A stretch of DNA of 6,259 bases from a bacterium (lineage in GTDB: Bacteria; UBA9089; CG2-30-40-21; SBAY01), in contig JBFLYA010000217.1 of NCBI GenBank assembly GCA_040757115.1, positions 1 through 6,259 of the forward strand. Reading direction: 5' to 3'. Position numbers and translations under genes: made by a program. Under the pieces are notes generated by a model, which had not been told where the DNA came from, did not search any database, and was given only the letters and a program-made list of their open reading frames with translations. Positions 1 to 6,259 of this stretch are shown here, piece by piece; the stretch's first letter is position 1, and each line of letters starts with the position of its first letter.

Positions 1-3000
1 ATAATTAATACAGGTAAATTTAAGCAAGACATGGAAGTAGTTAGTTTTATTGAGGGGTTTAACTTTAGCACTACCACCTTGCTTTCTTTATTACCATCAC
101 AAAAAGGAAATCTTAGCCTTAGCGCACCTATTCCAGCAAGTTTAACTGCTGGGTATTATTACGGTAGTGTCTGCGTCCAGATTGGTACTTCTTCTAAATA
201 TAAACAATTTAGTTTTTATATCCCGCAGGCAAAATTAGAGGTTAAAGTTAATGATAAAAGTTATCAGTTAGGGGAAACAGTAAATATTTATGTAAAGAAT
301 ATCGGCGGTGTAGCGGATAGTTGGGATTATACTATAAGATTATTTGATACAATAGGAAATGAGGTTTATACAGGTGAAGGGAGTATAGATAATTTATTTC
401 CAGCAGATGATGAGAGGATAATAGGATTTGATATTCCAGGTGGACTAATAACCGGAGATTATATCATAAGTTTAATTACGACTGCTCAACTTATACAGTT
501 AAGAGAAAATTTTGATAGATATATCAGTATAGAAGGGATAGATGCAGATATGAGTATATGCACTGCTCAGAAGACATACTCTATTAATGAGCAAATTAAT
601 GTAAATGTAAAGATAGATAATAAAAATGACGCTATTGAAGGTGCTAAGTTGAGCCTGAAAGTAAGAAGTAATTATCCTGGGTGGCAGACTTTTACTGCAT
701 TGGAAAGAATTCGTGATATTAAAGTTGATGGTAATTATGTCTGGTTTGCAACTAATTTGATTGTGAAAAGATATAATAAGGTAGATAATAAGTGGGATGA
801 TTATAATAAGATACAAGATGCTAATACAATAGCAGTAGATGGGAGGTATATCTGGTTTGGGACATGGGATGGTGTATCACGATATGATAAGGAAACCAGT
901 AGCTGGATAACTTTTAATATAGAAAATAGTGGGTTAGTGAGTAATCATATTAGGTCAATAGCAGTAGATGGGAAATATATTTGGCTTGGGACATGGGATG
1001 GTGTATCACGATATGATAAGGAAACCGGTAGTTGGACAACTTTTACCAAACAAAATAGTGGGTTAGTAAATAATGAGATTAGGTCAATAGCAGTAGATGG
1101 GAAATATATTTGGCTTGGGACATGGTATGGTCTATCACAATATGATAAGGAAACCGGTAGTTGGACAACTTTTACTAAACAAAATAGTGGGTTAGTGGAT
1201 AATGAAATTATGTCAATAGCAGTAGATGAAAAATATATTTGGTTTGGAACAGGGTATGGTGTATCACGATATGATAAGGAAACCAGTAATTGGACAACTT
1301 TTAATGAAAATAGTGGGTTAGTGAGTAAGTATATTAGGTCAATAGCAGTAGATGGAAAATATATTTGGTTTGGAACATGCTATGGAGTATCACGATATGA
1401 TAAGGAAACCGGTAGTTGGACAACTTTTACTAAACAAAATAGTGGGTTAGTGAGTAATGATATTAATTCAATAGCAGTAGATGAGAAATATATTTGGTTT
1501 GGAACAGACTATGATGGTGTATCACGGTATGATAAAGAAGGTTATAATTGGATAGATTTTACCCAACAAAATAGTGGGTTAGTGAGTAATGATATTATGT
1601 CAATAACAGTAGATGAAAAATATATTTGGTTTGGAACAGAGTATAAAGGTGTATCACGATATGATAAGGAAACCGGTAGTTGGACAACTTTTACCCAACA
1701 AAATAGTGGGTTAGTGAGTAATGATATTCATTCAATAACAATAGATGGAAAATATATTTGGATTGGAACAGAGTATGGTGTATCACGATATGATAAGGAA
1801 ACCGGTAGTTGGACAACTTTTAATATAGAAAATAGTGAGTTAGAGAGTAATGACATTTGGTCAATAGCAGTAGATGGAAAATATATTTGGGTTGGAACAT
1901 GTAAAGGTGGTGTATCACGATATGATAAGGAAACCGGGAGTTGGACAACTTTTACCCAAGAAAATAGTGGGTTAGAGACTAATTGTATCAGGACAATAGC
2001 AGTAGATGGAAAATATATTTGGATTGGAACATGGGATAATGATGTATCACGATATGATAAGGAAACCGGTAGTTGGACAACTTTTACCTCATACAATAGT
2101 GGGTTAGTGGGTTATAAGATTAGGTCAATAGCAGTAGATGGAAAATATATTTGGTTTGGGACACGCTATGGTGTATCACGGTATGATAAGGAAACCGGTA
2201 GCTGGACAACTTTTACCGAACATAGTATTATGTCAATAGCAGTAGATGGAAAATATATTTGGATTGGGACATGGGTGGGTGTATTACGGTATGATAAGGA
2301 AACCGATAGTTGGACAACTTTTACCCCAGCAAATAGTGGGTTAGTGAGTAATTATATTAACTCAATAGCAGTAGATGGGGAGTATATTTGGTTTGGAACA
2401 GAGTATGGTGTATCACGATATACTACAGCAGGGGATGTGATTTATGAAAAAGAGTATGAGATAACCTGTTTAGAATCAAGTATTAGTCAGGAAGTAATAA
2501 ATATTGGTACTTTAAGTAGTGTAGGTAAGCTATATATTGAAGGAGTACTTACCTCACATAAAAATCAGAAAATAGCTATAGATATGAATTCATTCTATAT
2601 ATTTAAGTCAAATTTATACCTAACATTTGATACTGATAAAAAGGTGTATAAACCTGATGAGTTGATTACTATATCCGGAACTCTAACAAATAAAGGAGAG
2701 AATATAGAAGCAGGTGACTTAGAGTTAAAGGTAAAAGATAGAGATGTAATATTCAGGACGCCAATTAATCTTGGCTCTAACAGTAGTTATAGTTTCATTG
2801 CTACTACTACGGCTAATTCATCTTTTGTCTTAGAATGTATGATAAACGATGTAAAGGTGATAGATTATATCCTGGTAGAAGAGACAAAAGTTAATATAGA
2901 GATAATTACAAAACAGGCATTAACAAGAGGAACAAATACACTAATCATAAGGTTAAAGAATATAAGTAAAGTTGATGTAGTTATTAATCATTGGTCATTA

Positions 3001-5934
3001 GCTATTAGTGATATAAAGCAAGAGTTTGATACTATTAGTATTCCGTCTTTACAAACAGTGGTCAAAGAAATTAATTACCAATTACCAGTTACTGGTTACC
3101 AATCAGACTATGCTACAATTACCTTAGTTTTATCAGGAAATGTAAGTGGGACTTATACTAAGCAGGTAGAGTTTGGAGAGTTAGTAGATTTAAGTATTAA
3201 TCCTGACTCAGTATATCCAATAGGGTATCTGGAAATACCGTTTGAGGTAGTAAATAGGGGTAAATTAGATTCGGAGTTTCCTGCGACATTTACGATATTC
3301 GCCACAGAGACACAGGGGCACAGAGAAATGTCAAATTCCAAATCTCAAACTACCAGGTTAGCCAATTACCCAGTTACCAAATTACCCGCTTGGTGTAAGG
3401 TAATGCCGAAGGTAGTGATCAGTGAGCAGAAGGCAGAGAGCAGAGTGCAGAGTGCAGAGAGCAGAGGGCAGAAGACAGAGGACAGAGGAGAGAAGACAGA
3501 AGACACCAGACACCAGACACCAAATCACCCGGTTACCAAATCTTCACTCGGCCCTATCATTTCGCAAGTCGGCCCTAATTCCATCATTCTTGCTTGTAAA
3601 TTCTATGTTCCAGCAGGTGGCATGATTACAGGTAATCTAATATTTGAGTTAGAAGAGGAAGTGTATGAACTTGGATATGAGTATTTTCGTGGTACTGGAA
3701 GTGCTAAGTTCAAGGTAGCAAAAGAAAACATTGCTAAGATTAAGGGGTTAACCGTAGATAGTCCCCAGTTTAGAGTAAGGGTAGAAAATCCTGGCTCAAA
3801 TGAGTTTAATGGAATGCTACAATTTGAAACACCGTTTTATCAAACCCAGACTTGTGTAAATCTTGATGCAGGCAAAGGTGCAACATATACGATTAAAATT
3901 CCAAATCTCAAATTCCAAATTCCAAACAAGTCTCAAATTCCAAACTCCAAATCCCAAATTACCCAATTACCCAGTTACTCAATTACCCAATCTCCCTTAC
4001 CTGGAACTTATACTGCTAAGGCTGTAATTTTGTATGATGGAAATGAGGTAGATAAGGAAGAGATGGTATTTAGTTTAGAACCGAATTTTGAGATTCTGGA
4101 TGTTAGTCATCTTGAATTAGCAGTTGGAAATGAAGGAACGATTAGCGTTGCAGTTAAGAATATTGGGATGGCTATGGGTGAGGCAAAGGTAAAGGTAAAG
4201 TTGTTGGATTTGCTGGATGAGGAAAAGGTGATTTGGTTAGCTCCGGAGGAAGTGGGGACGCTCAACTTCAGGTTATTTGTGCCATCAGATTTTGAGGAGG
4301 GAACTTATACAGGAGTGGTCAGTGAACAGTGGTCAGTGATGAGTAAAGAGTTTTCAGTAAGGATAGTTGGGATAAAGATAGATGTAGAAGCAAGTTTGGA
4401 TAAGGAGTGTTATGGAGAGAATGAGATGGCTACCTTTACCTTGAGGGTAACAAATCTAAGTGATGCAGGTTTAGGCACATTAAACCTATCGGCAAAGGTA
4501 AAATTCAACGATTATGCAGAAACAAAAACAATTACATTAGGTTATTTACAACAGGCTGGAAGCCTATTTTACTTACCTATCAATCATACAGGTCAAAAAC
4601 TTAATTTTGGTATATATTCTTTGGATGATAGGGCCATCTGGCTTGATGCCATTTATGTTCGACCAAAAGGAACACTTACAATAATTTCAGATAAGCAAAT
4701 CTACAATCAAGGGGAAACTGTAACCTTAACCATAATCTCACTTGAGGCAGGCACTGTGAGTTTAACCACACCAGGAGAGCCTGCGAGTGATACAATTACA
4801 TTTAACGGAGCAAGTAGTCAAACATTTGCATTCAATCTACCTGCACAAATGCTAAGTGGAACATATTATGTAAGTGTGGTAACCGCCCAGACGCAGAGAC
4901 ACAGAGAAATCTCAAATGTCAAATTATCCAATTTCCCTCTACTCTCTACTTCCTACTCTCTACTTCCTATTGATGTGCGAGGGATAGAGGTAGTAATAAA
5001 AGGAGCAAGTTTGGATAAAGCAGGGTATTCGTTTAATGAGGCATTTAAGGTCAAGATAAGTGTAGAGGTGAGTGAAGAATTTGAAGGGATGATAAAGGCA
5101 TGGATAGATGAAGGAGATAATTGGACTAAGGTATATGAGAAAGATGAAACATTTGAAAGTGGAAGGCAGGTCTATGAGATAGTAAGTACTACAACTACAT
5201 CCCCCAGACAAACATTAATCTATGGTATATATTTAGGAACACATACCTTAGTTACATCAGGAAGGAAGGGAATAAGTATCTACAACATTCCTGAAGAAAT
5301 GGGTAAGATTATAGAGAAGGAGTGGCTAATGGTAGAAATAATGCCATCTGCACTAAGTAAAAACGCCTTGTTTGATTTTTTTAAGGTAACACAATATCCA
5401 TCACCACCAGCAGGGATACAGCCAATAGGGTGTTATGAGTTTGTTATTTATGATAAGGATGTAGAGATAAAAAAAGATTTAAAGGTAACATATTTTTATG
5501 GACAAGAAGGCATAGAGTATGATATAATAAAAGATAGTTTAAAGGCATATTATATCAGGAATGGGGAGTGGGAAGTAGTCAGTAGCCAGGAATTGGATAA
5601 AGTGAATAATAAGTTAATATTTTATTTACCACATTTATCATTGGTAGGCATAGGTGCAAAGGTAAGTAAATCTTTAGGGGAGGTAATAGTTTATCCTAAC
5701 CCGGCAAGGGAGCAAGTAACTTTTGGTGATAACTTACCAGCTACAATAATGGTAAGGATATTTAATATAGTCGGTGAAGAGGTATATGAATATGAGGGAG
5801 TAAGTAGTAGTGGTAAATGGCTCTGGAAGCTCCAGAATAAAGATAATGAGAAAGTAGCCAGTGGGATTTATATTTATGTGATTAGTAGTTCTGAAGGAGA
5901 TAAGAAGGTAGGTAAGATAGGTGTGGTGAGGTAA
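1..5934 (+). CDS. Giant secreted modular protein: Ig-like modules, 14-repeat beta-propeller array, C-terminal sorting-type domain (5' partial)
   Basis: The frame is open from the first base. The ATG at 31 has no ribosome binding site or signal peptide behind it, and the residues before it (NTGKFKQDMEVVSF) read as the middle of an Ig-like strand, so the true start lies upstream. Numbering from that ATG gives 1967 residues. Ig/CARDB-like modules are recognised by repeated 'Y..GE.v.i.v.N.g' openings and 'G.Y...V' closings: D1 68-170, D2 171-213 plus 801-860, D3 861-952, D4 953-1050, D5 1051-1200, D6 about 1230-1345, D7 1351-1447, D8 1448-1545, D9 1546-1651, D10 1652-1755. A Reg_prop-like propeller array (227-810) sits inside D2. 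The C-terminal YPNP domain (1884-1967) suggests export to the cell surface. No catalytic motif, kinase or transmembrane segment is visible, so a binding, adhesion or structural role is inferred. Residues about 1015-1025, 1091-1170, 1290-1324, 1429-1440 and 1619-1647 are low-complexity and derive from short-repeat DNA. The stop is TAA at 5932. Confidence 0.93.
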   Translation: MINTGKFKQDMEVVSFIEGFNFSTTTLLSLLPSQKGNLSLSAPIPASLTAGYYYGSVCVQIGTSSKYKQFSFYIPQAKLEVKVNDKSYQLGETVNIYVKNIGGVADSWDYTIRLFDTIGNEVYTGEGSIDNLFPADDERIIGFDIPGGLITGDYIISLITTAQLIQLRENFDRYISIEGIDADMSICTAQKTYSINEQINVNVKIDNKNDAIEGAKLSLKVRSNYPGWQTFTALERIRDIKVDGNYVWFATNLIVKRYNKVDNKWDDYNKIQDANTIAVDGRYIWFGTWDGVSRYDKETSSWITFNIENSGLVSNHIRSIAVDGKYIWLGTWDGVSRYDKETGSWTTFTKQNSGLVNNEIRSIAVDGKYIWLGTWYGLSQYDKETGSWTTFTKQNSGLVDNEIMSIAVDEKYIWFGTGYGVSRYDKETSNWTTFNENSGLVSKYIRSIAVDGKYIWFGTCYGVSRYDKETGSWTTFTKQNSGLVSNDINSIAVDEKYIWFGTDYDGVSRYDKEGYNWIDFTQQNSGLVSNDIMSITVDEKYIWFGTEYKGVSRYDKETGSWTTFTQQNSGLVSNDIHSITIDGKYIWIGTEYGVSRYDKETGSWTTFNIENSELESNDIWSIAVDGKYIWVGTCKGGVSRYDKETGSWTTFTQENSGLETNCIRTIAVDGKYIWIGTWDNDVSRYDKETGSWTTFTSYNSGLVGYKIRSIAVDGKYIWFGTRYGVSRYDKETGSWTTFTEHSIMSIAVDGKYIWIGTWVGVLRYDKETDSWTTFTPANSGLVSNYINSIAVDGEYIWFGTEYGVSRYTTAGDVIYEKEYEITCLESSISQEVINIGTLSSVGKLYIEGVLTSHKNQKIAIDMNSFYIFKSNLYLTFDTDKKVYKPDELITISGTLTNKGENIEAGDLELKVKDRDVIFRTPINLGSNSSYSFIATTTANSSFVLECMINDVKVIDYILVEETKVNIEIITKQALTRGTNTLIIRLKNISKVDVVINHWSLAISDIKQEFDTISIPSLQTVVKEINYQLPVTGYQSDYATITLVLSGNVSGTYTKQVEFGELVDLSINPDSVYPIGYLEIPFEVVNRGKLDSEFPATFTIFATETQGHREMSNSKSQTTRLANYPVTKLPAWCKVMPKVVISEQKAESRVQSAESRGQKTEDRGEKTEDTRHQTPNHPVTKSSLGPIISQVGPNSIILACKFYVPAGGMITGNLIFELEEEVYELGYEYFRGTGSAKFKVAKENIAKIKGLTVDSPQFRVRVENPGSNEFNGMLQFETPFYQTQTCVNLDAGKGATYTIKIPNLKFQIPNKSQIPNSKSQITQLPSYSITQSPLPGTYTAKAVILYDGNEVDKEEMVFSLEPNFEILDVSHLELAVGNEGTISVAVKNIGMAMGEAKVKVKLLDLLDEEKVIWLAPEEVGTLNFRLFVPSDFEEGTYTGVVSEQWSVMSKEFSVRIVGIKIDVEASLDKECYGENEMATFTLRVTNLSDAGLGTLNLSAKVKFNDYAETKTITLGYLQQAGSLFYLPINHTGQKLNFGIYSLDDRAIWLDAIYVRPKGTLTIISDKQIYNQGETVTLTIISLEAGTVSLTTPGEPASDTITFNGASSQTFAFNLPAQMLSGTYYVSVVTAQTQRHREISNVKLSNFPLLSTSYSLLPIDVRGIEVVIKGASLDKAGYSFNEAFKVKISVEVSEEFEGMIKAWIDEGDNWTKVYEKDETFESGRQVYEIVSTTTTSPRQTLIYGIYLGTHTLVTSGRKGISIYNIPEEMGKIIEKEWLMVEIMPSALSKNALFDFFKVTQYPSPPAGIQPIGCYEFVIYDKDVEIKKDLKVTYFYGQEGIEYDIIKDSLKAYYIRNGEWEVVSSQELDKVNNKLIFYLPHLSLVGIGAKVSKSLGEVIVYPNPAREQVTFGDNLPATIMVRIFNIVGEEVYEYEGVSSSGKWLWKLQNKDNEKVASGIYIYVISSSEGDKKVGKIGVVR
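709..2460 (+). repeat. 14-copy in-frame repeat array coding a Reg_prop-like beta-propeller
   Basis: Fourteen repeats of about 43 codons begin at 709, 820, 949, 1078, 1207, 1333, 1462, 1594, 1726, 1855, 1987, 2119, 2227 and 2356. The consensus is I-x-S-I-A-V-D-G-K-Y-I-W-F-G-T, then two or three variable residues, GVSRYDKETGSWTTFT, two variable residues and NSGLVSN. This matches the 'nlWiGT..gGlsrYd' pattern of the two-component regulator propeller family (Reg_prop), though no sensor kinase follows. Repeat lengths are 42-44 codons except copy 12 (36 codons, lacking the NSGLVSN part) and the degenerate copies 1 and 14. Copy 14 lacks its W-TTF strand, while residues 217-222 just before copy 1 (WQTFT) supply one, as expected for velcro closure. 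The DNA is nearly identical between neighbouring copies, pointing to recent amplification or gene conversion. Confidence 0.93.
3073..3100 (+). repeat. Heptamer tandem repeat inside the CDS (AATTACC type)
   Basis: Four consecutive 7-bp units AATTACC, AATTACC, AGTTACT, GGTTACC are read in frame as residues about 1015-1024 (NYQLPVTGYQ), between two strands of Ig-like module D4. The same unit type recurs at 3362-3388, 3524-3541 and 3960-3990. Because the peptide fits a strand-loop-strand position, a chance resemblance is possible for this shortest patch alone. Confidence 0.6.
3304..3388 (+). repeat. Composite short-repeat insert inside the CDS (CACAGAGA / CAAATTCC / AATTACC)
   Basis: Three repeat types lie end to end: a CACAGAGACACAGG-type purine-rich stretch (3304-3329), a TCAAATTCCAAATCTCAAA-type stretch (3331-3349) and an AATTACCC/AGTTACC stretch (3351-3388). 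The translation (residues about 1092-1119) is low-complexity and interrupts Ig-like module D5 after the strand FPATFTIF. The first two parts recur in the same order at 4891-4926, and the last two at 3903-3990. It is read as a dispersed repeat captured in frame. Confidence 0.75.
3424..3528 (+). repeat. Heptamer tandem repeat inside the CDS (NNNCAGA type, 14 units)
   Basis: Units of exactly 7 bp run from 3424: GAGCAGA, AGGCAGA, GAGCAGA, GTGCAGA, GTGCAGA, GAGCAGA, GGGCAGA, AGACAGA, GGACAGA, GGAGAGA, AGACAGA, then AGACACC three times, fading into AAATCAC. Three units make 21 bp, so the protein shows a matching 7-residue period (EQKAESR, VQSAESR, GQKTEDR, GEKTEDT). The patch is highly charged and unlike the beta-rich flanks. 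It is followed at 3524-3541 by an AATTACC-type tail that is 16/18 identical to 3365-3382. Confidence 0.85.
3898..3999 (+). repeat. Composite short-repeat insert inside the CDS (CAAATTCC / AATTACCC)
   Basis: A run of CAAATTCC, CAAATCTC and CAAACTCC variants passes into 8-bp units AATTACCC, AATTACCC, AGTTACTC, AATTACCC, AATCTCCC. It encodes residues about 1290-1323, a Q/S/P/N/I-rich peptide lying between the strand ATYTIKI and the strand PGTYTAKAV of module D6. It shares the 16-bp string CCAATTACCCAGTTAC (3963-3978) with 3362-3377, but in a different reading frame. Confidence 0.8.
4315..4349 (+). repeat. Heptamer tandem repeat inside the CDS (GTGGTCA type)
   Basis: Units GTGGTCA, GTGAACA, GTGGTCA, GTGATGA and a degenerate GTAAAGA follow each other with a 7-bp period. 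They encode VVSEQWSVMSK within the last hairpin of module D7, after the strand EGTYTG. Both other forward frames contain a TGA inside the patch (at 4337 and 4323), so only the frame in use is open. Confidence 0.7.
4884..4971 (+). repeat. Composite short-repeat insert inside the CDS (CGCAGAGACACAGAGA / CAAAT / CTCTACT)
   Basis: A CGCAGAGACACAGAGAAAT-type stretch (4892-4910) is followed by CTCAAATGTCAAATT and then five 7-bp pyrimidine-rich units at 4937-4971: CTCTACT, CTCTACT, TCCTACT, CTCTACT, TCCTATT. The product (residues about 1619-1647) separates the strand GTYYVSVV from IDVRGIEV at the D9/D10 boundary. The 11-bp string CACAGAGAAAT at 4900-4910 is repeated at 3319-3329 in the same frame. 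Confidence 0.8.
5341..5670 (+). other. Pre-C-terminal beta module of the giant protein
   Basis: Residues about 1771-1880 read as a self-contained beta module: a Y-E-F-V-I-Y-D core strand, then LKVTYFYG, an 'LKAYYIRNGEWEVV' segment and a closing 'LIFYLPHLSLVGIGA'. From memory, modules with this 'l.iyy...W..v.....d..n..i...l.h.S.f.l.g' pattern often precede sorting-type C-terminal domains in large exported proteins. The family name is not certain and no catalytic residues are apparent. Confidence 0.5.
5677..5931 (+). other. C-terminal sorting-type domain (T9SS type A / FlgD-Ig-like)
   Basis: The last 85 residues start with GEVIVYPNPA and continue with a 'VRIFNIVGEEV' strand, a 'GKWLWKLQNKDNEKVASGIYIYVI' core and the basic end KKVGKIGVVR. 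The order YPNP, V.IFN..G.EV, W..., G.ASGIYIY, K-rich end is the classical layout of type IX secretion C-terminal signals and of the related FlgD_ig fold. It implies export across the outer membrane if the host has that machinery, which cannot be judged from this window. Confidence 0.75.
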
Positions 5935-5999
5935 GAAGGTAGGAAAGAAAGTAATGCCTCGATTATCGGGGGTAAAGAAAATAAAATTGAGTGAAGTTG

Positions 6000-6052
6000 G
6001 AAATTAGAAATTGGGAAGAGAAGTGAAAGCCTAATTTCCAATTTCTAATTTC
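6000..6052. repeat. Long AT-rich inverted repeat (AAATTAG type) in the spacer
   Basis: GAAATTAGAAATTGG (6000-6014) and its exact reverse complement CCAATTTCTAATTTC (6038-6052) form a 15-bp perfect stem, extendable by three pairs (one G-T wobble) around a 17-nt loop. A second, overlapping pairing is possible: TTGGAAATTAG (5997-6007) with CTAATTTCCAA (6031-6041). No T-run follows, so it is a poor intrinsic terminator. It lies 65 bp after the stop codon and could still stabilise the mRNA 3' end. It is read as a dispersed palindromic repeat. Confidence 0.7.
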
Positions 6053-6067
6053 AGTGTAACTATTCAG

Positions 6068-6106
6068 CCACTGATTAACACGGATTAGCACGGATAAATA
6101 CAGAGG
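6068..6106. repeat. 10-bp tandem repeat (GATTAACACG type) in the spacer
   Basis: Three 10-bp units GATTAACACG, GATTAGCACG and GATAAATACA follow CCACT and precede GAGG. From memory, sequences of the form 'CACTGATTAACACGGATTAACACGGAT' are common dispersed intergenic repeats in several environmental bacterial lineages; that recollection was not checked. No coding function is apparent. Confidence 0.6.
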
Positions 6107-6121
6107 TCAGAGACGGGTTGT

Positions 6122-6147
6122 CCCCCGCTGGCGGGGGTTAGGGGGTT
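6122..6147. repeat. GC-rich palindrome with GGGGGTT direct repeat upstream of the DUF559 gene
   Basis: CCCCCGCTGGCGGGGG (6122-6137) is a perfect 7-bp inverted repeat around TG, realistically a 6-bp stem with a 4-nt loop. GGGGGTT occurs at 6133-6139 and again at 6141-6147. The element is sharply GC-rich in an AT-rich region and ends seven bases before the downstream ATG. Its second half supplies that gene's apparent ribosome binding site. Confidence 0.7.
6140..6145 (+). promoter_or_regulatory. Probable ribosome binding site of the DUF559 gene
   Basis: AGGGGG lies 8 bases before the ATG at 6154, a normal Shine-Dalgarno spacing. It is part of the GC-rich palindromic element, so pairing of 6122-6128 with 6131-6137 could affect its accessibility. 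An in-frame TAG at 6139-6141 excludes an upstream start. Confidence 0.55.
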
Positions 6148-6153
6148 GTAAGT

Positions 6154-6259
6154 ATGAAGATTCATTACAATCCGAAATTGAAAACTTACGCCAGAGAACT
6201 TAGAAAGCAAGGGGTTTTATCGGAAGTATTGCTTTGGAAGTATTTGAGAAGCAGAAAGA
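6154..6259 (+). CDS. DUF559 domain protein, endonuclease-like (3' partial)
   Basis: The 35 visible codons begin MKIHYNPKLKTYARELRKQG and continue with VLSEVLLWKYLRSRK. The pattern N-x-x-L-K-x-x-A-R-x-L-R, then S-E-x-x-L-W-x-x-L-R, is the hallmark of the N-terminal end of DUF559 proteins, which are about 110-130 residues long and belong to the Vsr/PD-(D/E)xK-like nuclease fold. Glu24 and Trp28 are the conserved pair seen here; the catalytic core lies beyond the window. The start is the first ATG after an in-frame TAG at 6139 and has AGGGGG 8 bases upstream. The gene is in the same direction as the giant gene but 219 bp away, behind several repeats, so it is probably a separate unit. The biological role of most DUF559 proteins is not established. 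Confidence 0.85.
   Translation, partial: MKIHYNPKLKTYARELRKQGVLSEVLLWKYLRSRK

Follow-up and report, generated by a model that had tools for sequence, protein, structure and literature searches.

Heptamer tandem arrays in loops of conserved proteins and in intergenic DNA of a candidate-phylum bacterium

The window analysed here is the whole of contig C217, a 6259-bp stretch from the 4.32-Mb genome (462 contigs) of an uncultured bacterium placed in the candidate phylum of Ca. Desantisbacteria. It carries a long reading frame for a multi-domain protein with a secretion tail, and the half of this gene that follows its propeller domain contains six patches of tandemly repeated DNA with units of 7 or 8 bp. 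The repeats are periodic at the level of DNA, share units with arrays elsewhere in a genome in which intergenic arrays are in excess, and lie in protein loops where homologues hold different units in the same register; in-gene length differences between sister species preserve the frame. The arrays are probably the product of a lineage-specific process that makes and homogenizes heptamers throughout the genome, with selection retaining in-frame, mostly hydrophilic products located in loops.

Tandem arrays in the window gene

Tandem Repeats Finder reports arrays of period 7 or 8 at 3073-3103, 3303-3326, 3346-3387, 3426-3522, 3896-3991 and 4889-4969. A shift-autocorrelation test, which counts stretches matching themselves when shifted by 7 or 8 bp, finds six arrays in the post-propeller half of the gene, compared with a mean of 0.07 and a maximum of 2 in 1000 shuffles exchanging synonymous codons, the null used for coding arrays. 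The same test finds none in the propeller half. The in-frame short-repeat patches described in a first-pass annotation are thus real; all six lie after the propeller and keep the frame, which is open from 1 to 5934. The features are as follows.

1-5934, forward strand: open reading frame with its 5' end off the contig, identified from the frame itself, Pfam and TIGR04183; Reg_prop propeller, immunoglobulin-like (Ig-like)/MG2-like modules and C-terminal sorting tail of the type IX secretion system (T9SS)
2977-3015, forward strand: seventh site, decayed in the window (GTTATTA ATCATTG GTCATTA GCTATTA, by eye) and overlooked by the first-pass annotation
3070-3102, forward strand: patch 1, AATTACC/CAGTTAC array
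3303-3390, forward strand: patch 2, compound, 8-bp CACAGAGA followed by CAAATTC and AATTACC units
3424-3541, forward strand: patch 3, NNCAGAG array, then ACACCAG, then ACCAAATC
3895-3999, forward strand: patch 4, CAAATTC, then AATTACCC units
4312-4349, forward strand: patch 5, AGTGGTC array at a turn between two predicted strands
4884-4971, forward strand: patch 6, compound, CGCAGAGACACAGAGA, then CAAATTN, then CTCTACT

The coding DNA of 25 homologous segments contains 45 arrays, compared with a mean of 1.2 in synonymous shuffles, and shifts of 7 and 8 bp give 47 in these segments where control shifts of 4, 5, 10, 11 and 13 bp give none. Because the signal is lost both in synonymous shuffles and at control shifts, the periodicity is a property of the DNA and not of the peptide. 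This result bears on the idea that the patches are ordinary low-complexity linkers, shaped at the protein level, whose DNA looks repetitive by chance. The loops are polar and variable in length, in keeping with such linkers, but the synonymous shuffle refutes the idea in the window family (45 to 1.2) and likewise in the TMEM260-like family described below (82 to 9.5). Moreover, a period of 7 or 8 bp is not a multiple of 3, and the same units occur in intergenic DNA, making this the least credible of the explanations weighed here.

Pfam matches in the window frame comprise Reg_prop, the PorZ propeller, MG2 and Por_Secre_tail. The C-terminal sorting domain scores 34.5 bits with TIGR04183 (cut-off 23) and 27.8 bits with PF18962 (cut-off 27). 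PorZ itself (NF052228) was considered as an identity for the protein, and the name is not applied because the score of 171.5 bits lies under the curated cut-off of 260. The AlphaFold model of the protein is weak, with a mean predicted local distance difference test (pLDDT) score of 54, and a Foldseek search of this low-confidence model against PDB returned only generic strings of Ig-like/macroglobulin domains. In the model, patches 2, 3, 4 and 6 fall in low-confidence segments free of strands and patch 5 lies between two predicted strands, while the region of patch 1 is too poorly modelled to be placed relative to strands. The earlier proposal that the patches lie between predicted strands is supported in that patches 2-6 fall in loops of this weak model.

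A genome-wide population of heptamer arrays

Arrays of this kind were surveyed in 800 kb of the genome, taken as 40 stretches of 20 kb chosen without regard to repeats, and the conclusions hold for this sample. It contains 100 intergenic arrays, 33 arrays within genes and 4 at gene edges, corresponding to densities of 0.70 per kb in intergenic DNA and 0.05 per kb in genes, a 14-fold difference. A lag scan of the 800 kb identifies 115 lag-7 and 23 lag-8 arrays, compared with 0, 12, 0 and 1 at lags 5, 10, 11 and 13, respectively. Many unit spellings are present, and four from the window (AATTACC, AAATTCC, AGAGGGC and ACTCTCT) are in the ten commonest. As the first-pass annotation expected, the repeats recur elsewhere in the genome: CAAATTCCAAATTCCAAA, allowing at most two mismatches, has 280 sites, compared with 18 for its reversed control.

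Arrays within genes and between them also use the same units. For 24 of 32 in-gene arrays, the unit is common to an intergenic array on another contig, compared with 13 for reversed units and a mean of 8.8 for shuffled ones. This sharing, together with the intergenic density, places the units in dispersed, mainly intergenic families, as originally suggested, and hints that exchange between distant loci may also take place. Units with stops on both strands, such as AAACTAT with its 20 exact tandem pairs, are never found inside genes. Among arrays that could be read on either strand, the more polar orientation is the one used in 16 of 19 cases.

The secreted protein is not the special landing site that the first-pass annotation proposed. 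Arrays occur in 23 of the 601 sampled genes, including those of cytoplasmic and membrane enzymes: HdrA-like oxidoreductases with up to four arrays per gene, TMEM260-like glycosyltransferases, CobN, PilM, T2SSF and another T9SS-tailed protein. Given this variety, the secreted protein is one tolerant host among many. Genes with a T9SS-like tail carry arrays in 1 of 9 cases and other genes in 22 of 592, numbers too small to show a preference for secreted proteins.

Several families of dispersed elements of 200-300 bp are present as well; they are apparently mostly intergenic and resemble miniature inverted-repeat transposable elements. Examples lie at L116:5417-5807 and 9497-9769, L126:12203-12425 and 16215-16424, L167:895-1135 and L164:1750-2001, and many copies, at about 80-100% identity, are present in G001, the genome of a sister species in the same genus. 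At least one such element (near L116:17920-18173) differs between the window genome and G001 at a syntenic place. Within the window, the intergenic tail at 5935-6152 has repeats of its own, with AAATTAGAAATTGGGAA facing TTTCCAATTTCTAATTT and a CACGGATTAA repeat at 6069-6095. A downstream frame begins at 6154-6259 (MKIHYNPKLKTYARELRKQGVLSEVLLWKYLRSRK); it may resemble DUF559 proteins.

Different units at the same sites in homologues

Homologues of the window gene were drawn from the same genome, genus, order and phylum, and counts among them represent non-independent events. Array positions are shared between homologues more often than expected, with 24 co-located pairs against 8.4 expected and none of 1000 trials reaching this number. 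The array peptides of the window gene differ between relatives, in agreement with the variability anticipated in the first-pass annotation. At the site of patch 6, the arrays of L091, a homologue in G001, and of L092 both consist of five units and agree in length and register, but are spelled CTCATCC in the former and CTCTACT in the latter. Identity is 0.64 and 0.86 within these two arrays and 0.49 between the homologues, compared with 0.70-0.77 in the flanks. Five kinds of array occur at this site across five relatives; the units there include CAATTCC in L089, a paralogue in the window genome, CTCATCC in L091 and L061, CTCTACT in L092 and ATGCAGA in L062.

The remaining sites show a range of histories. 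The decayed site at 2977-3015 corresponds to clear arrays in L091, L061, L062, L093, L090 and L097, with units that include TCATTAG, GTGGCAG, GATGGAA and AATTGCA. At the site of patch 2, the array is longer and different in L091 and L061, and other units are found in L096, L097, L098 and L203; at that of patch 3, other arrays are present in L091, L061, L099, L103, L104 and L203. Both sites thus carry different arrays in distant families. Since several sites have homologues of equal register and length with a different unit, the array appears to turn over in place.

At patches 1 and 5, features conserved in homologues do not support the captured inserts of the first-pass annotation. The NYQLPVTxY peptide of patch 1 is old and conserved across the order, the kind of conservation that the annotation itself had named as contrary to insertion; it is missing, leaving the protein 6 amino acids shorter, in remoter homologues. 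Patch 5, with about three good units, does not reach the strict threshold; homologues have better arrays in the same register, and the AGTGGTC-like register is kept in L089, L091, L092 and even L097, from another family of the phylum.

A second protein family provides the clearest case. TMEM260-like proteins (PF11028) form a large family, with up to 28 match segments per genome, and were taken up on account of three sampled paralogues with arrays at matching positions. Fifty homologues, consisting of L164:8951-11344 and 49 others, contain 82 arrays, compared with 9.5 in synonymous shuffles and 2 at control shifts, and 79 of the 82 lie inside three loops. These loops are variable, and arrays are present in them in most of the phylum's families, with none in family f2. 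In the second of these (loop B), 21 homologues have five-unit windows in one register relative to a conserved YLF motif. Their units fall into ten consensus spellings, among them AAACTCA, ATCCAAA, AAGCTCA, ACGCTCA and AAAATTC. Units of a single array have an identity of 0.82 and units at corresponding positions in different homologues one of 0.50, compared with 0.75 in 54 nt of flank, and this combination of high within-array and low between-homologue identity relative to the flanks indicates concerted evolution. Two units are present in L274 and L276 and five in L279, a step of three units, which is the smallest that keeps the frame.

These comparisons bear directly on the model of the first-pass annotation, in which ready-made dispersed intergenic elements insert repeatedly into tolerant linkers and are captured in frame. 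The unit families shared with intergenic DNA and the intergenic excess speak for this model, as do the restriction of patch 4 to the window gene and L089 and the difference in compound arrays between these two genes at the patch 6 site. However, neither the target duplications that the model led one to expect nor a clean empty site was found in the aligned DNA of six homologues, and patch 4 stands in for some 40 bp of loop sequence present in the relatives. Equal register and unit number with different units, as at patch 6 and in TMEM260-like loop B, are hard to obtain from independent insertions and do not agree with arrays as simple captured inserts. The compound GCAGAGACACAGAGAAAT..CAAAT is also not dispersed and is found only in the window gene and its G001 relative. 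The compound CGCAGAGACACAGAGAAAT..CAAAT was considered as a dispersing unit and set aside, having been found among 19 genomes only in the window gene and the G001 homologue. Repeated insertion is therefore unlikely as a general account; patch 4 and the compound make-up of patch 6 may have arisen by capture.

An assembly artefact, in which short-read assembly collapsed or chimerized repeats into the gene, would be consistent with the gap of Ns that the L089 contig shows exactly at patches 2-3. Against this, corresponding arrays are present in a pair of homologues (L091 and L061) from G001, which was assembled separately, fixed loops hold arrays again and again across many separate genomes, and the frames are open. 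We consider such an artefact extremely improbable.

Lineage dependence, mechanism and relation to known repeats

Between the window genome and G001, arrays within genes differ in length by 21 bp in the T2SSF gene and by 36 and 24 bp in the HdrA-like gene, all divisible by 3; these sister-species comparisons cover few arrays. The differences argue against a contingency locus, in which gain or loss of 7- or 8-bp units would toggle a surface protein by phase variation. Unit lengths not divisible by 3 and the presence of several arrays in one secreted protein would suit such a locus, but the units are degenerate and homologues keep an open frame through their arrays; moreover, the CobN, HdrA-like, PilM and T2SSF genes carry arrays too. 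Phase variation is accordingly very improbable. In one intergenic comparison, G001 is 378 bp longer between two syntenic genes, at L116:16260, within CAGAAGT and CTCTGTC repeats. Three further 20-kb regions compared with the sister species consist mostly of array-free alignable blocks and contain no births of arrays.

The presence of arrays depends on lineage. In family f2, which belongs to the same order, 12 TMEM260-like genes contain no arrays, compared with 82 in the 38 others, and loci around TMEM260-like genes in other phyla contain 1 array in 109 kb. The TMEM260 fold was considered as an explanation for the arrays and rejected on these counts. In small samples in which the studied genes are over-represented, lag-7/8 matches number 2 in 66 kb and 5 in 53 kb in the f2 genomes G006 and G007, compared with 20 in 101 kb in G001 and 15 in 101 kb in G003. 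Because the TMEM260-like genes of f2 have no arrays and the loci of other phyla almost none, the array habit belongs to genomes and not to the protein fold.

Taken together, these observations are best accounted for by heptamer making and homogenization across the genome. The window arrays would be the coding members of a genome-wide population with a near-constant unit of 7 bp (sometimes 8 bp) and many unit sequences. A DNA-level process would create, expand, contract and homogenize arrays wherever they are located, most likely through slippage and conversion between units, perhaps also between dispersed arrays; slippage and unit conversion are the simplest known chemistry for this and may well be the cause. 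In coding DNA, selection would keep products that preserve the frame (net changes of three units) in surface loops and linkers, mostly as polar peptides, and arrays would stay at tolerant loops over long periods while their unit sequence is replaced. If arrays persist in loops as their units change, the linker peptide is rewritten repeatedly, and the array peptides probably have no conserved function beyond linking. A more tentative proposal, which we hold as doubtful, is that heptamers are written and rewritten genome-wide, in coding loops as well, by an active machinery or mutational mode that is specific to the lineage and moves in inherent steps of 7 bp. It would swap units between dispersed arrays, act as a standing source of in-frame linker peptides and have been lost or quietened in f2.

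Several points weigh against the favoured explanation. When the null is limited to length-variable regions, 13.0 co-located pairs are expected and 12 of 500 trials reach 24, so that tolerance of loops alone accounts for most of the co-location. Counting each identical unit a single time lowers the polar orientation bias to 11 of 14 (p = 0.06). No array birth or loss is seen between the sister species, in which the differences are only length changes of existing arrays. Patch 4, confined to the window gene and L089, adds 24 amino acids relative to relatives and takes the place of loop sequence without interrupting it; it looks like a lineage-specific gain, nearer to capture than to turnover. 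Finally, genes were called with an in-frame hexamer model made for the study, and the contigs are metagenome-assembled.

Among known repeats, the nearest are the heptamer arrays (STRR and TAACTGA) of cyanobacteria, Beggiatoaceae and some Bacteroidetes. According to the available text of MacGregor (2015; PMC4679880), these are mostly intergenic, with occasional in-frame copies in a stop-free orientation, mainly at protein ends. The arrays described here are similar in having heptamer units and many dispersed, mostly intergenic arrays, some of them in reading frames. In contrast to that account, dozens of unit spellings coexist here in place of one, and the arrays within genes occupy loops in the interior of conserved proteins; same-site turnover of units across homologues is not described in that text. 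Exact tandem pairs of TAACTGA, or of the STRR1-3 units CCCCAAT, CCCCAGT, TTGGTCA and CAACAGT, do not occur in the 800 kb. The resemblance to STRR repeats noted in the first-pass annotation thus extends to dispersed, mainly intergenic 7-bp arrays and not to the named units.

Rickettsia palindromic elements (RPE) are palindromes of 105-146 bp with terminal inverted repeats (Ogata 2000, reviewed in PMC2229807). Like the window arrays, they are repeat DNA tolerated both between genes and in frame within conserved protein genes; the window arrays, however, are tandem and not palindromic. A search for a palindromic element in 3050-5000 found one weak inverted pair only (22 nt, 77%), not flanking any patch. 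With the named heptamers absent and no palindrome, the arrays are not members of these named families and work like heptamer repeats. Bacillus has tandem repeats of constant size and variable sequence (Subirana and Messeguer 2021, PMC8161180), whose units measure 52 or 20-21 nt. They likewise combine a fixed unit length with a unit sequence that varies between arrays of one genome, but the available text treats them as non-coding and says nothing of protein loops being rewritten. Intragenic variable-number tandem repeats and phase-variable repeats share slippage-driven change in unit number within genes; the present arrays differ in the degeneracy of their units, in the exchange of one unit for another between homologues and in the preservation of frame by the changes observed. 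The literature searched yielded no account of units being replaced in the same register within coding loops, which does not prove that none exists.

To our knowledge, heptamer repeats in bacteria have for decades been treated chiefly as intergenic curiosities of no known mechanism. Here, conserved proteins carry them at fixed loops and in one register, and the unit differs from relative to relative. It becomes possible to test what gives rise to arrays of uniform size and arbitrary sequence, how they spread, and whether DNA-level processes furnish bacterial proteins with new linkers. Family f2, array-free in its TMEM260-like genes, and its array-rich neighbours within one order offer a natural comparison for finding the genes responsible.

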